From Alphaproteobacteria bacterium (GTDB taxonomy: Bacteria; Pseudomonadota; Alphaproteobacteria; Sphingomonadales; Sphingomonadaceae): DNA of 64,000 nt. Made by a program: the position numbers and the translations under genes. Positions 6,068 through 45,600 of this stretch are shown one piece after another (positions within the stretch are counted from its first letter, which is position 1; every line of letters starts with the position of its first letter). The stretch is taken from positions 1,922,001 through 1,986,000 of the forward strand of contig VBAC01000001.1 of NCBI GenBank assembly GCA_005883305.1, written 5' to 3'. The notes below the pieces were generated by a model. It had not been told where the DNA came from. It did no database searches and saw only the letters and a list, made by a program, of their open reading frames with translations.

Positions 6068-6310
6068 ATGAAAATCCGCATCTACGTGACCCTGAAGAAC
6101 GGCGTTCTCGACCCGCAGGGCAAGGCGATTCATCACGCGCTGGAAGGGCTCGGCTTCGAAGGCGTGAAGGGCGTTCGCGCCGGAAAGCTGATCGAGCTCG
6201 AGGTCGACGATTCCACCGGCGACGACGCGCTCGACGAGATGTGCCGCAAGCTGCTCGCCAACACGGTGATCGAAAATTACCGGATCGAGCGGGGGGAGAA
6301 AGCGGCGTGA
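6068..6310 (+). CDS. purS: phosphoribosylformylglycinamidine synthase subunit PurS
   Basis: 80 residues beginning [18 protein letters not shown], the typical PurS opening. PurS is the small bridging subunit of the three-part FGAM synthase (PurS-PurQ-PurL) in purine synthesis. The ATG at 6068 is chosen because the 12 codons in front are not PurS-like. The stop overlaps the GTG of purQ by GTGA, the normal coupling for this pair. PurL is not in the window. Confidence 0.93.
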
Positions 6311-6972
6311 GGAGCGCCGTGATCGTCTTCCCGGGCTCCAATTGCGATCGCGACATGGCCGAGGCGATCCGGCTGGTGAGCGGCGCCGAGCCGGCGATGG
6401 TTTGGCACCGCGAGAGCGCGCTGCCCGACCGGTTCGATTTGATCGCTGTGCCGGGCGGCTTTTCCTATGGCGACTATCTGCGATCGGGGGCGATGGCCGC
6501 GCAGTCGCCGGTGATGCGCGCGGTGAAGGAAGCCGCCGACCGTGGAGTCGCCGTGCTCGGCGTCTGCAACGGCTTCCAGGTGCTGGCCGAGGCGCGCCTT
6601 CTGCCCGGCGCGCTGATGCGCAACGCCGGCATCCGCTTCGTCTGCCGCGACGTGGCGCTGACCGTCGAGAACAGCCAGTCCGCCTTCACCGCCCGCTATC
6701 AGGCGGGCGAGGAGATCGTCATCCCCGTCGCCCATCATGACGGCAATTACCAGGCCGATCCCGAGACGCTCGACCGGCTCGAGGGCGAAGGGAGAGTCGC
6801 CTTCCGCTATCGCGCCGACGTCAACGGATCGGCGCGCGGCATCGCCGGCATCCTCAATGAGGCCGGCAACGTGCTCGGCATGATGCCGCATCCCGAGCGA
6901 ATGGTGGAAGCCGCCCACGGCGGCCAGGATGGACGCCGGCTGTTCGAAGGCTTGCTCGAAACGGTCGGCTGA
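6307..6972 (+). CDS. purQ: phosphoribosylformylglycinamidine synthase subunit PurQ
   Basis: 221 residues from GTG 6307, overlapping the purS stop. PurQ is the class I glutamine amidotransferase that feeds ammonia to PurL. The N-terminal [13 protein letters not shown], the nucleophile elbow GVCNGFQ, the oxyanion-region [14 protein letters not shown], and the His/Glu pair in [10 protein letters not shown] are all present. Operon with purS. Confidence 0.95.
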
Positions 6973-41195: not shown

Positions 41196-41354
41196 ATGAA
41201 GGCCGGTGCCGACAACGCGACACGCCAATATGTGAAGGTGGCTCCGCCCACCGTTCACGCCGGCGTGGGCGATGCCCTGCGCCAGGCGTTCCGGATGGAC
41301 GGCGAGATGCGTTCGCTGACGGTCTTCGAACAGCTCCTCGCCCGCCTCGATTAG
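41196..41354 (+). CDS. NepR-like micro-protein, 52 residues
   Basis: From ATG 41196 (GTG 41175 also in frame); GAAGGA lies upstream. The last 29 residues, VGDALRQAFRMDGEMRSLTV followed by FEQLLARLD, align without gaps to the last 29 of the NepR at 43400-43603 (VG-ALR--Y/F at one end, LL-K/R-L at the other; 8 identities). It lacks the Pro-rich turn of NepR. It is convergent with ecfG, overlapping it by 4 bp, and has a near-consensus EcfG promoter. A second anti-sigma or a decoy for PhyR is a reasonable guess; unproven. Confidence 0.6.
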   Translation: MKAGADNATRQYVKVAPPTVHAGVGDALRQAFRMDGEMRSLTVFEQLLARLD

Positions 41355-42013
41355 GCTTCGGGGGCCTCGTCGATATCCGGGTCGCGGTCCCGGCTCAGCT
41401 CGTCGACCTCGCTCATGATCGATTGCAGCGCGGTCTGGTTGTCCGGCGTATGGTGCGACCGGCGCGAGGGCAACTTCCCTTCGCTAAGCAGCGCTTCGAG
41501 CGCCACCCGGCCGCGGGCGACCCGGCTCTTGATCGTCCCTACCGCGCAGCCGCAGATCTCGGCGGCTTCCTCATAGGCGAAGCCGCCCGCGCCGACGAGG
41601 ATCAGCGCCTCGCGCTGCGGCTGCGGCAGGTGGAGCAGGGCGCGCTGCATGTCGCCAAGCTCGATGTGGCGGTCCTGGCTGGCCGGGGCGGCGAGCAGCT
41701 TCGAGGCCGTCAGCTCGTCCCACTCGCCCTTGAACCGGGCCCGGCGCATCTGGCTGAGGAACAGGTTCCGGAGGATGATGAAGGTCCAGGCGCGCATGTT
41801 GGTCCCGGCCTGGAAGCGCTTGCGCGCCGCCCACGCCTTGAGCAGGGTTTCCTGTACCAGATCGTCGGCGAGATCGCGGCTGCCCGAAAGCGAGCGGCCG
41901 AACGCGCGCAAATGCGGAATGACCTGGCCAAGCTGCTGCTTGAACTCATCGTCGGGCAAAGGCGCCCAATCGCCGTCATTCGCCTGAACCTGTGCCGGCT
42001 GTTCGCCCGCCAT
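41351..42013 (-). CDS. ecfG: general stress response sigma factor EcfG
   Basis: 220 residues from ATG 42013 (GAGGGGC 7 nt upstream). Sigma-2 region DLADDLVQETLLKAWAARKR with TNMRAWTFIILRN, sigma-4 region LPQPQREALILVGAGGFAYE then CGCAVGTIKSRVARGR, the EcfG (ECF15) pattern. About 30 extra residues at each end. Kept inactive by NepR and released when phosphorylated PhyR binds NepR. Preceded by a 44-residue membrane protein gene and an exact EcfG promoter, so autoregulated. Confidence 0.93.
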   Translation of the reverse strand: MAGEQPAQVQANDGDWAPLPDDEFKQQLGQVIPHLRAFGRSLSGSRDLADDLVQETLLKAWAARKRFQAGTNMRAWTFIILRNLFLSQMRRARFKGEWDELTASKLLAAPASQDRHIELGDMQRALLHLPQPQREALILVGAGGFAYEEAAEICGCAVGTIKSRVARGRVALEALLSEGKLPSRRSHHTPDNQTALQSIMSEVDELSRDRDPDIDEAPEA

Positions 42014-42091
42014 CAAATGCCCCTCACGCTTCAATTTCGACGATCTACGGTTCCCGGACGGGTCCCGCCACAACCAAAGTCAAGACAAGGA

Positions 42092-42324: not shown

Positions 42325-43119
42325 TCAGGCCGGAACCGTCGCCGCGTCGAAAAACAGCGCCTGGGCGATCGCCGCTTTCACGGTCGAGCGCTGGAAGGGC
42401 TTGGTGATCAGGAAGGTCGGCTCCGGCCGCTCGCCGGTCAACAGGCGCTCGGGAAAGGCGGTAATGAAGATCACCGGCACCGCGAATTCGGCCAGGATGT
42501 CCTTCACGGCGTCGATTCCGGAACTGTCGTCGGCGAGCTGGATGTCGGCCAGGACCAGGCCCGGGCGCTTGGCCAGCGCCTGGCTGACCGCCTCGTCGCG
42601 GGTCACGGCCACTCCGGTGACGTTGTGGCCGAGGTCGCGGACGATCGTTTCGATATCCATCGCGATGATCGGCTCGTCCTCGATGATCAGCACGTCGGCC
42701 CGGGTCTGGCGCTCGATCTCGGCCAGCGCCTCGGCGACCAGCGCTTCGACCTCGGAGCCCGACGCGCCGATCAGATAGCCGGCATCCTCGGGCGTGAAGC
42801 CCTCCATCGCCGTCAGCAACAGCGCCTGGCGCGACAGCGGGGTGATTCGCGAGAGGCGGGCGCGGGCGATGTCCTCGGGCGCCTCGGCGCCCGCGTGGCC
42901 CGGCTCTTCCTCGACATTGGCGGTGGACCAGATCGCATGGAACGTCTTGTACAGGCCGAGCCGGGGGTCGACGTCCCGCGGAAAATCGCCGGGGGCCGCG
43001 ACGATCGCTTCCAGCGTGGCCCGGACGAAGGCGTCGCCATGGGCCTGAGTGCCGGTCAGGGCGCGGGCGTAGCGGCGGAGAAAGGGAAGATGCGGCGCGA
43101 GTTCCTGGCCAAGCGACAT
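42325..43119 (-). CDS. phyR: response regulator PhyR, anti-anti-sigma factor
   Basis: 264 residues from ATG 43119 (AGGAG 9 nt upstream). An N-terminal sigma-like domain (about 1-130, mimicking EcfG) is followed by a receiver: acidic pocket E147/D148, phospho-acceptor D192 in LVLADIQL, FITAFPERLL and K240 in LITKPF. When phosphorylated, the sigma-like domain binds NepR and frees EcfG. Divergent from nepR; the EcfG promoter in between faces nepR only. Confidence 0.97.
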   Translation of the reverse strand: MSLGQELAPHLPFLRRYARALTGTQAHGDAFVRATLEAIVAAPGDFPRDVDPRLGLYKTFHAIWSTANVEEEPGHAGAEAPEDIARARLSRITPLSRQALLLTAMEGFTPEDAGYLIGASGSEVEALVAEALAEIERQTRADVLIIEDEPIIAMDIETIVRDLGHNVTGVAVTRDEAVSQALAKRPGLVLADIQLADDSSGIDAVKDILAEFAVPVIFITAFPERLLTGERPEPTFLITKPFQRSTVKAAIAQALFFDAATVPA

Positions 43120-43250
43120 GGGTTTGCGACTCCTTCGGTCAATCACGGGTTAAATGTGTGGACGCCTGCGCGATTGCAACCCCGTGACGGTCGCGCAACG
43201 ACACGCACCAAACGGGGAAATGCCGAGCCGCCCCCGCTGTACGCCCCTAT

Positions 43251-43275: not shown

Positions 43276-43399
43276 TCAATGGTCGCGTGGGCCGATTATT
43301 TCGGTGCCGCGACATTCTTGCGTCTGTTAAGCGGGGAAGCACGAGCTGGCTCGCCCAGACATTCGATTCCAGGCGGGGCGTCGCTCGGGGGTATAGTCA

Positions 43400-43603
43400 T
43401 TGAGCTTTGAAAAGGACACGGACGGACCGCGCAAGCGCAAGCCCGCCGCTGACGGAGACATGGAGATTTCGAACCCATCCAGGCGTGCGAAGAGGCGCCC
43501 CGCGACCGGCGAGGTCGGAAGCGCCTTGCGCAGCGTCTACGATCGCGCGCTCGCCGAGGATATTCCGCCCGAAATGCTCGATCTCCTCGGCAAGCTTGGC
43601 TAG
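43400..43603 (+). CDS. nepR: anti-sigma factor NepR
   Basis: 67 residues from TTG 43400 (ATG 43460 gives a shorter form without a spaced ribosome site). The conserved helix-turn-helix part reads VGSALRSVYDRALAEDIP then PEMLDLLGKLG, the NepR hallmark. The basic N terminus (RKRKPAA, RRAKRRPA) is disordered-looking, also typical. It holds EcfG until PhyR-P displaces it. Fourteen bases separate it from the kinase gene. Confidence 0.9.
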   Translation: MSFEKDTDGPRKRKPAADGDMEISNPSRRAKRRPATGEVGSALRSVYDRALAEDIPPEMLDLLGKLG

Positions 43604-43617
43604 GGCTCGCAGGCGAA

Positions 43618-45186
43618 ATGAGCGGCCGCACGCAAAGCTGGGCGGCGGGGCGTTGGGCGGCCCTTTCGACAGGCCTAAAGATGTTTTTCTTCCTGAGCAT
43701 CGGGCTGCTTCCGCTCGGGTTGATCGCCGTCTCCGCCTCGTTCGACAATGCCCGCGCCAACCGTGACAAGGCGGAGATCGAGGCGCGCGCGACGCTGACC
43801 ACGCACGTCCAGCGCTTCACCCTCGCTCTGTCCCGCAACGGCTCGACGATTCGCTCGGCCCGCGACGCAATCATCGAGGCGAACAACCCCGAAGGGGTCT
43901 GCGCTCGAACGCTGGCGCGCCTGGCGCGCGCGCCAAACACGCCCGGCCGCTTCGCCCTGTTCGGCGAAGGCCCGGAGCCGCGCTGCCGGAGCGAAGGGTT
44001 CGTTCCCCCGCCCGCGCCTCCGGGCCGGGGAGCGGTGGGACGGGGCCTGATCTCGCCCGACGGCCAGCGGCTGACGATCTTTCTCTACCAGCCGGACGGA
44101 ACGATCGAGGGCGTCGCGGAATACGATCGCGCCACTCTGGCCGATGTCGTCAACAAGCCGGTCGTGCCCGGCAATTTCGCGGTCTCGCTGGTCGAAGGAG
44201 GCCACCGGATGCTCCTGCGTCCAGGCCCCGCGGCGAGCGCGTTCGAAAGCGGCGTGACCGTCGATTTTCCGGTCTCCAACGCCGGTTACGCGATACGGCT
44301 CAACGCCTTGATTCCGCCGGTCACCGCGACCGACCTGCTGGTCATCCTGACCCCCGTATTGATGTGGCTGTGGGCCTCGCTGGTCGGCTGGATCATCGTC
44401 CAGTGGCTCCTTCTGCGCCCGCTCGGCCGGCTTCAGGGCGTGATTTCGGCCTACCGCCCGGGGACCAGCTTCGACCTGCCGGCCGTCCGCAGCCCGGCGC
44501 AGGAGATCGACGCTCTGGGCCAGGCCTTCGACCAGGCGGCGCAAACGGTCGCCCGCCACGAGGCGGAGCTCGAGGCCGCCGTCGCGCGCCAGACCCGGCT
44601 GGTTCGGGAGGTTCACCACCGGGTGAAGAACAACCTCCAGGTCGTCGCCTCGCTTCTCAACCTCCACTCGCGCGGCTCGACCAACGAGCAGGTGGCCGCC
44701 GCTTACGCCTCGATCCAGCGCCGGGTCGACGCGCTCGCCGTGGTCCACCGCAACCATTATGCCGAGCTCGAGGCCAATCGCGGCGTCGCGCTCAAGCCGC
44801 TCATCTCCGAGCTTGCCGCCAATCTGCGCGCCACGGCCCCGTCTTCCGCCTCGGGGACGCAGATCCGGCTCGACGTCGCACCCGTCTACGTGACTCAGGA
44901 CGTTGCCGTCTCGGTCGCCTTCCTGGTCACCGAGATCGTCGAGTTCGGTATGTTCTGCGGCTCGACCATGGTCTCGGTGGTGATCGAGCCCGAGGAGGGT
45001 GGGACGGCCCGCCTCGCGGTCGAGGTCGATGCGCTGTCGCAGACCGTCGATTGCGACGAGGCGCTTGCCGACCGGTTCGAGCGGATCGTCACCGGCCTCG
45101 CCCGCCAGCTCCGCTCGGCGCTGGAGAGGGATTCGGCGCGCGGCCGTTACTCCGTCCTGCTCAACGTCCTCCCGTCCGACGCCTGA
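43618..45186 (+). CDS. HRxxN-family sensor with degenerate ATPase domain (PhyP-like)
   Basis: 522 residues. Two membrane helices (about 21-41 and 238-264) bracket a 195-residue periplasmic sensor, followed by HAMP-like and HisKA_2 segments. The His box is VHHRVKNNLQV with H334-R335-x-x-N338, the HRxxN group that acts on PhyR. The ATPase part has no recognisable N-box Asn (it reads LVTEIVEFGMFCG) and no glycine-rich G boxes, so autophosphorylation is unlikely. In Sphingomonas, PhyP at this locus is a PhyR phosphatase with a similar defect. Same operon as nepR. Confidence 0.85.
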   Translation: MSGRTQSWAAGRWAALSTGLKMFFFLSIGLLPLGLIAVSASFDNARANRDKAEIEARATLTTHVQRFTLALSRNGSTIRSARDAIIEANNPEGVCARTLARLARAPNTPGRFALFGEGPEPRCRSEGFVPPPAPPGRGAVGRGLISPDGQRLTIFLYQPDGTIEGVAEYDRATLADVVNKPVVPGNFAVSLVEGGHRMLLRPGPAASAFESGVTVDFPVSNAGYAIRLNALIPPVTATDLLVILTPVLMWLWASLVGWIIVQWLLLRPLGRLQGVISAYRPGTSFDLPAVRSPAQEIDALGQAFDQAAQTVARHEAELEAAVARQTRLVREVHHRVKNNLQVVASLLNLHSRGSTNEQVAAAYASIQRRVDALAVVHRNHYAELEANRGVALKPLISELAANLRATAPSSASGTQIRLDVAPVYVTQDVAVSVAFLVTEIVEFGMFCGSTMVSVVIEPEEGGTARLAVEVDALSQTVDCDEALADRFERIVTGLARQLRSALERDSARGRYSVLLNVLPSDA

Positions 45187-45218
45187 ATCTTTTTTTTCAA
45201 AAAATTTTCGCCAACCGT

Positions 45219-45243
45219 GGAACCCACCGTCCGCCCCTCCGTT
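45219..45243 (+). promoter_or_regulatory. EcfG promoter of the C-loop RNA (exact GGAAC-N16-CGTT)
   Basis: GGAAC at 45219-45223, 16 bp, CGTT at 45240-45243: exact consensus, 33 bp after the kinase stop. Initiation would fall near 45250, at the foot of the first hairpin of the RNA gene that follows. Confidence 0.8.
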
Positions 45244-45249
45244 TAGCAA

Positions 45250-45354
45250 TTCGGATAGTGACCTTTTGCCCCCCCGCTCTCGCTATCCAGAACATGGGCC
45301 CGGACGCGCTAACCTCCCCCCCCCCGGTAGCGCATCCGGGCTCAACTTCTTTTT
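45250..45354 (+). ncRNA. candidate EcfG-induced small RNA with two C-rich loops (GsrN-like)
   Basis: No open frame of note. Hairpin 1: GGATAGTG (45253-45260) pairs with CGCTATCC (45281-45288), and its 20-nt loop displays seven consecutive Cs (45269-45275). Hairpin 2: GCCCGGACGCGCTA (45298-45311) pairs with TAGCGCATCCGGGC (45328-45341) with one mismatch, its loop displays ten Cs (45316-45325), and CTTCTTTTT follows as a terminator. An exact EcfG promoter stands 7 bp upstream of the expected start. C-rich exposed loops beside the ecfG/phyR locus are the published features of GsrN in Caulobacter. Assignment by structure and position only. Confidence 0.7.
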
Positions 45355-45388: not shown

Positions 45389-45414
45389 GGAACTGAATCG
45401 GCCGCGCGGGCATT
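45389..45414 (+). promoter_or_regulatory. possible EcfG promoter of the entericidin gene (weak)
   Basis: GGAAC at 45389-45393, N17, CATT at 45411-45414: the -10 has one mismatch. It would give the lipoprotein gene a leader of about 55 nt and place it in the stress regulon. Confidence 0.35.
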
Positions 45415-45474: not shown

Positions 45475-45600
45475 ATGAAGAAGCTGTTCGCGATTTTCGC
45501 GCTCGCCGGGACGCTCGTCGCAGCGACCGCATGCAATACGGTTCGCGGCGCCGGCGAGGACGTCGAATCCGCCGCCAACGCGGTCGACAACGCGACCTGA
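45475..45600 (+). CDS. entericidin A/B family lipoprotein
   Basis: 41 residues from ATG 45475 with AGGAG at 8 nt. Lipobox VAATACN after MKKLFAIFALAGTL, then NTVRGAGEDVESAANAVDNA, the entericidin pattern. These tiny lipoproteins are usual members of stationary-phase and EcfG regulons. Followed by a strong terminator. Confidence 0.9.
   Translation: MKKLFAIFALAGTLVAATACNTVRGAGEDVESAANAVDNAT

Follow-up and report, generated by a model that had tools for sequence, protein, structure and literature searches.

A candidate σEcfG-dependent small RNA with C-rich loops, conserved at the general stress locus of sphingomonads

A 64,000-nucleotide stretch of a sphingomonad genome (here called the window) contains a conserved and so far unannotated candidate gene for a small RNA of about 105 nt (positions 45250 to 45354, plus strand), which folds into two hairpins with C-rich loops and follows a σEcfG-type promoter. 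We consider it highly probable that this gene specifies a free-standing, trans-acting small RNA (sRNA) that is transcribed by σEcfG and pairs through its C loops with G-rich mRNAs. An initial annotation, made from the letters of the window alone, had proposed an EcfG-driven C-loop sRNA at this position; conservation of the RNA and its hairpins, the EcfG-type box and the covariation of the stems all support that overall reading.

The sRNA gene adjoins the core genes of the general stress response (GSR), as the initial annotation had described. The gene order in the window is ECF sigma factor gene, phyR, nepR, HisKA_2 kinase gene, RNA, entericidin-like gene and tat genes. The ECF sigma factor gene (41351 to 42070, minus strand; Sigma70_r2 and r4_2 domains) was named ecfG from its position beside phyR (42328 to 43146, minus strand), which encodes the anti-anti-sigma response regulator (Pfam PhyR_sigma2, 2.1e-26; Response_reg, 7.2e-12). 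An exact EcfG box lies on the minus strand upstream of ecfG (42287 to 42263) and suggests that ecfG may be autoregulated. The gene for the anti-sigma factor NepR (43400 to 43600, plus strand) matched its Pfam model at 1e-05, scoring 25.5 bits, just under the cut-off of 25.7. It is followed by a HisKA_2 histidine kinase gene (43618 to 45183, plus strand; Pfam HisKA_2, 2.7e-18), whose product has a HAMP match of 18.7 bits, below the cut-off of 25. We presume this kinase to be PhyT/PhyP-like from its position and from a published passage. PhyT of S. melonis was formerly called PhyP (excerpt of PMC6599016). Downstream of the sRNA gene lies a gene for a small entericidin-like lipoprotein (45475 to 45597, plus strand; Pfam Entericidin, 20.8 bits, short of the 23.3 required), and beyond it tatC-tatB-tatA on the opposite strand. 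A weaker EcfG-like box, GGAAC-N17-CATT, precedes the entericidin-like gene on the plus strand (45389 to 45414). Where such a gene is present, transcription may read through into it from the sRNA gene.

The start of the predicted RNA was placed from the promoter and its end from the T run. Hairpin 1 (45253 to 45288, plus strand) presents the loop CCUUUUGCCCCCCCGCUC, the proposed pairing seed, with seven Cs at 45269 to 45275. Hairpin 2 is terminator-like and together with its T tail occupies 45295 to 45354 on the plus strand; the hairpin itself extends from about 45295 to 45344, its C10 loop (45316 to 45325) contains CCUCC, and it is followed by CTTC and then by T5 at 45350 to 45354. The region from 45245 to 45354 folds with −46.9 kcal/mol, whereas shuffled versions average −27.15 (z −6.25), and none of 200 shuffles folded as well. 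The earlier description of two hairpins with C7 and C10 loops within about 105 nt, closed by a U-run end, was thus borne out in the window. The terminator of the sRNA gene was absent from the list of a mechanical terminator scan because the scan allows loops of only 3 to 8 nt. In 47 of 91 copies from relatives, no T run longer than 3 occurs in the 16 nt that follow the stem, so that terminator strength is not uniform. The C run of loop 2 varies from 5 to 17 in length and would break any reading frame through it; a small protein was therefore not favored. The genome that contains the window (the own genome) yielded one match for the RNA, both by BLASTn (E up to 0.001) and with covariance model R3 (E up to 0.1; 96 of 1420 candidates scored).

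The promoter predicted by the initial annotation, an exact GGAAC-N16-CGTT, was confirmed on the plus strand at 45219 to 45243 and is conserved in relatives. Such a box is weak evidence when taken alone, since chance alone would place 1.1 exact EcfG boxes in the 64-kb window, where four were found. A 464-kb sample of the own genome contained eight exact boxes, and a C-loop fold followed the box of the sRNA gene only; a control pattern gave five boxes in the same 464 kb, with a C-loop fold after none. Because the promoter lies outside the covariance model, its conservation provides independent evidence. GGAAC occurs no more than 40 nt upstream of the RNA in all 91 distinct relative copies; the box GGAAC-N15-18-(C/T)GTT is full in 84 of these, six have a near box and one has GGAAC-N16-CATT. 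In the 90 copies with a full or near box, hairpin 1 begins 8 to 9 nt past the end of the box. When 71 copies were aligned on the box, the two promoter boxes carried 1.15 to 2 bits per position and the spacer at most 0.4 bits, except for its first base (C, 1.33 bits); among relatives the boxes stay and the spacer mostly drifts. An A/T-rich, UP-like tract (A6T4; 45199 to 45208, plus strand) lies upstream of the −35 box in the window. In 71 aligned upstream regions of relatives, a corresponding enrichment in A and T lies at −53 to −45 relative to the hairpin foot, and with the copies aligned on the box instead, the A/T tract is 11 to 19 nt ahead of the −35 box. A strict box test was passed by 9 of 22 more divergent copies; 12 of the 13 that failed differ at the base before GTT, and one has CATT. 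The box of the sphingomonad sRNA agrees with those given in excerpts of two published studies, GGAAC-N17-20-GTT for S. melonis (PMC6599016) and GGAAC-N16-CGTT for S. granuli, where −10 boxes are flexible (PMC7083833).

Both stems are conserved with covariation in other sphingomonads, as a covariance search of the kind that the initial annotation had suggested revealed. In 91 distinct copies, 96.8% of the cells pair and 21 of the 29 pairs show two-sided change; in a wider set of 69, 96.2% of the cells pair and two-sided change reaches 25 of 29 pairs, a number attained by none of 500 shuffles (mean 14) and compared with 10 to 13 in slid controls. Hairpin 2 shows two-sided change in 16 of 18 pairs (alignment A3). 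These alignments were fitted to the model, which favors pairing, and more weight therefore rests on the slid control and on the two-sided changes. Loop 1 reads TGC(5-12)GCT in 91 of 91 distinct copies, with a C run of exactly seven in 79; this constancy is partly due to selection, because the search model contains the loop. Loop 1 is near-constant along its whole length, beyond a short seed. Loop 2 is looser (C run of 5 to 17), with CCTCC in 73 of the 91 copies. Absence of the stems and C loops from related genomes, which had been named beforehand as an argument against the sRNA, was looked for, and both elements proved to be widely conserved.

We then examined how far the RNA extends among relatives. 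BLASTn gave strong matches in 26 of 60 genomes, namely, the own genome, 24 of 25 others of the same genus and 1 of 10 from other genera of the family, and no strong match in 24 genomes from other families of the order. With the covariance model, the RNA was found at 54 of 80 named kinase loci, always on the kinase strand and 55 to 1128 nt past the end of the kinase match; these 80 genomes were picked by kinase similarity, and S. melonis, the genetic model, is not among the named loci. Of the 26 kinase loci without the RNA, two lie on contigs that end 19 and 84 nt past the kinase and one meets an assembly gap; in the fetched stretch of the 23 with flanking sequence the RNA was not found, and it was found elsewhere in those genomes. 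Nine of these 23 loci were inspected and carry different DNA after the kinase gene. A whole-genome search of the 26 gave a match in every one (28 of 28 with two positive controls), 27 of these at E ≤1.2e-13 and one, on another stem (L289), at 2.4e-8. At four loci (L031, L033, L040 and L098) the contig ends 19 or 84 nt past the kinase or at the RNA end, or has a gap there, and C tracts may break assemblies and thereby hide the sRNA gene.

All searches of the order and class scored only part of the candidates. In a draw of 40 order genomes, less biased than the choice by kinase similarity (model R3), the eight from the same family, including the own genome, gave three strong matches, one at 9e-11, two weak matches and two without a match, and in the 32 genomes from other families no match fell below 1.5e-6. 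The order-wide count of 37 in 196 genomes probably understates the range of the RNA, because only 19 candidates were scored per genome and one uncounted genome (G070) matches at 9e-11 with R3 when 96 are scored. Among 385 class genomes (model R2, stricter filters, 10 candidates per genome), strong matches were confined to the own genome and one other of the same family; weak matches (E 5.8e-4 to 0.9) occurred in nine other genomes, and three further same-family genomes had no match. A second class draw of 41 genomes returned the same two strong genomes and one weak match. Weak matches outside the family (L141 and L293) were treated as look-alikes; no EcfG box was seen at either, and no GSR genes lie near L141, the best weak match of the class. 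The elements at L141/L150 (near 5674) and at L293 have two hairpins and a double C loop and are look-alikes or other sRNAs. Model matches on the reverse strand at the same positions (19 of 73, E 0.004 to 0.7) were discounted as mirroring the hairpins. Together, the draws of kinase loci, order and class show that the RNA family is old in sphingomonads, is not universal there and is undetected outside them among the candidates scored.

Several genomes contain candidate siblings of the RNA. Four sibling sequences (L289, L290, L291 and L308) keep loop 1, with small differences, on wholly different stems, which is a stronger sign of loop constancy than the 91-of-91 count. The EcfG box passes the test in L290, L291 and L308, and L289 has GGAAC with CATT; L322 and L292 belong to the group more loosely, each having a box and a C loop. 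A single metagenome-assembled Sphingobium sp. genome (G615, locus L061) carries four candidates (L286, L290, L308 and L322). In L290, about 170 nt separate the RNA (1502 to 1590) from a downstream frame beginning at 1753 that matches the catalase-peroxidase KatG (E 5.2e-206; partial frame compared). With an E limit of 0.1, R3 found no sibling among the 96 of 1420 candidates that were scored in the own genome, nor in 469 kb of it searched directly with R3, where the next matches, at E 0.1 and 0.29, have no GGAAC box. We regard as evenly balanced the proposal that sphingomonads carry sibling σEcfG-dependent sRNAs that share the loop UUUUGCCCCCC(C)GCUC on interchangeable stems, with one core copy linked to the stress locus or to entericidin-tat, joined in some species by further copies, and that they would form a repressing or re-tuning arm of the stress response.

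From the form of the RNA and its likeness to GsrN of Caulobacter, we infer the following mechanism. Under stress, PhyR would take NepR off EcfG, and the freed EcfG would transcribe the sRNA gene. The sRNA would then present a fixed C7 loop on hairpin 1 and a looser CCUCC/C-tract loop on its terminator hairpin. Through these loops it would base-pair with G-rich segments of mRNAs, most probably near ribosome-binding sites. Pairing would probably involve Hfq and alter the translation or stability of several mRNAs. Hfq is present in the own genome as one 177-amino-acid frame with two tandem Hfq domains (L155/L156; C1:1005022-1005459, minus strand).

That the C loops pair with G-rich ribosome sites, as the initial annotation had put forward, is plausible, and no individual target passed a conservation test. 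The window and 20 segments of 20 kb each, together 464 kb of the 3.03-Mb genome, gave 415 predicted starts when genes were called with a script; at these starts the native loops performed on average no better than shuffled ones. A 16-nt antisense pattern of loop 1 gave 31 matches, one of them the gene itself, against 28 for a control, and a target with long complementarity was therefore rejected. No run of four or more Gs occurs in the 400 nt upstream of the katG match in the own genome. Followed up from the 30 best candidates listed, purQ and a MarR-like gene were not conserved as targets in same-genus genomes (23 and 9 loci, respectively). The sequence GAGCGGGGGG just before purQ (window 6269 to 6338) pairs well with loop 1 on paper and is not conserved in the genus. 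Among the GSR and tat genes (8 genes with 2 loops each), native loops beat shuffled ones on average only for nepR and phyR with loop 1, by 1.2 kcal/mol (31 of 49) and 0.9 kcal/mol (34 of 53), respectively; these advantages are too weak to count as more than a lead. Ribosome sites of nepR are often G-rich (GAGGGG, AGGGGG), as seen in the window at 43375 to 43400 and at nepR starts among L031 to L110, and are a possible target of the C loops.

We weighed three other explanations of the conserved element. It could be a structured 5′ leader, or attenuator, of the entericidin-like gene rather than an RNA gene of its own. This was a serious rival because a lipoprotein gene follows the RNA in 39 of the 54 named loci by pattern (and at L051 by tblastn; at L035, L040 and L082 the contig ends too soon to judge), and no second GGAA(C/T)-N15-18-(C/T)GTT box occurs in the 400 nt after the RNA (54 loci, available sequence). 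RNA, lipoprotein gene and tatC also occur together in 19 of the 22 more divergent copies, which come from other contexts; L276 has the lipoprotein gene but no tatC, and both genes are missing at L277 and L289. However, at 11 of the 54 loci there is no lipoprotein gene, the end of tatC lies 19 to 53 nt past the RNA and the RNA is intact, so that it is no mRNA leader there, and on this basis we rejected the leader as the main explanation. Moreover, the lipoprotein gene could have a promoter of its own in the weaker box at 45389 to 45414, loop 1 is conserved beyond what an attenuator needs, and the siblings keep the loop in other contexts. Overall, we judge a leader function unlikely.

It is also improbable, in our assessment, that the RNA mainly binds a protein through its fixed loop 1, as a decoy or scaffold, rather than mRNAs. 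Such a role would fit the near-constancy of loop 1 over its whole length and the fact that none of the target tests confirmed an mRNA, yet a bare C tract is a known loop for pairing with G tracts, as in GsrN with katG (excerpt of PMC5869019). Finally, in many named loci the RNA has the kinase gene on one side and the convergent tat genes on the other, and its hairpin 2 is terminator-like, but conservation merely as an intrinsic terminator between convergent genes would leave hairpin 1, its fixed loop, the fixed EcfG-type promoter and the copies in other contexts unexplained, and we hold this to be very nearly ruled out. A free-standing, trans-acting sRNA remains the preferred explanation.

The closest likeness among known systems is GsrN of Caulobacter, a σT/EcfG-dependent sRNA with a six-C loop that pairs with the G-rich katG leader and activates katG mRNA (excerpt of PMC5869019). 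By its published description, GsrN likewise is about 100 nt long and has an EcfG-type promoter, a 3′ terminator hairpin and a C-rich loop in its 5′ hairpin (six Cs compared with seven), and its homologues usually lie near ecfG-nepR-phyR, as the sphingomonad RNA lies near core GSR genes in the window and at 54 of 80 loci. GsrN is further characterized by stress-dependent expression and a processed, stable 5′ form. In contrast to GsrN, the sphingomonad RNA has a C-tract loop in its terminator hairpin as well, lies 3′ of a kinase gene or in front of entericidin-tat, and is accompanied by a katG leader without a G tract in the own genome; the last point argues against filing it as GsrN, although it concerns a target and not a strict defining feature. 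In the same excerpt, BLASTn matches of GsrN are confined to Caulobacteraceae and no gsrN-like gene is apparent in the Erythrobacter outgroup. The comparison with GsrN drawn by the initial annotation is thus a fair working likeness in promoter, place, size and C-rich 5′ loop rather than a proof of kinship.

No match reached threshold when the 64-kb window was compared with Rfam (4227 families). The best Rfam match, the Streptomyces sRNA Scr3202 (RF02833; 25.0 bits, E 0.13), also has two hairpins with C-rich loops, but it falls far below the gathering score of 52 and comes from a distant phylum, and we treat it as a likeness only. The alphaproteobacterial sRNA ar14 (RF02344) carries CCUCC-type loops on hairpins as well; the sphingomonad RNA reaches only 14.6 bits (E 1.4) where the gathering score is 58.8, and by this measure does not belong to that family. 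SuhB of Sphingopyxis granuli, likened here by description, is likewise a trans-acting sphingomonad sRNA and is Hfq dependent; unlike the EcfG-box RNA, it is 61 nt long and growth-rate controlled, and EcfG dependence is not described in the excerpt (PMC6563040). Within the available portions of the open-licence PMC literature, no paper was recognizable as describing the sphingomonad C-loop RNA. The main text of the S. melonis EcfG transcriptome paper does not contain the terms small RNA, sRNA, non-coding, ncRNA or GsrN (PMC6599016), the S. granuli EcfG paper contains of such terms only "non-coding", in a cited title (PMC7083833), and excerpts of two reviews name no such RNA (PMC8103513, PMC13414033). 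The S. granuli transcription-start map behind the SuhB work (Garcia-Romero 2018) may contain the RNA unnoticed.

By analogy, the sphingomonad RNA appears to be a previously undescribed addition to the EcfG-controlled C-loop sRNAs, of which GsrN is the alphaproteobacterial example found in print. Its likely meaning follows from the division of labor in stress responses. Sigma factors mostly switch genes on, and sRNAs provide the arm of a stress response for switching genes off or tuning them. A conserved sRNA in sphingomonads, many Sphingomonas species included, that is probably driven by EcfG would make this sRNA arm directly testable, and the persistence of the loop on divergent stems shows which nucleotides to mutate.
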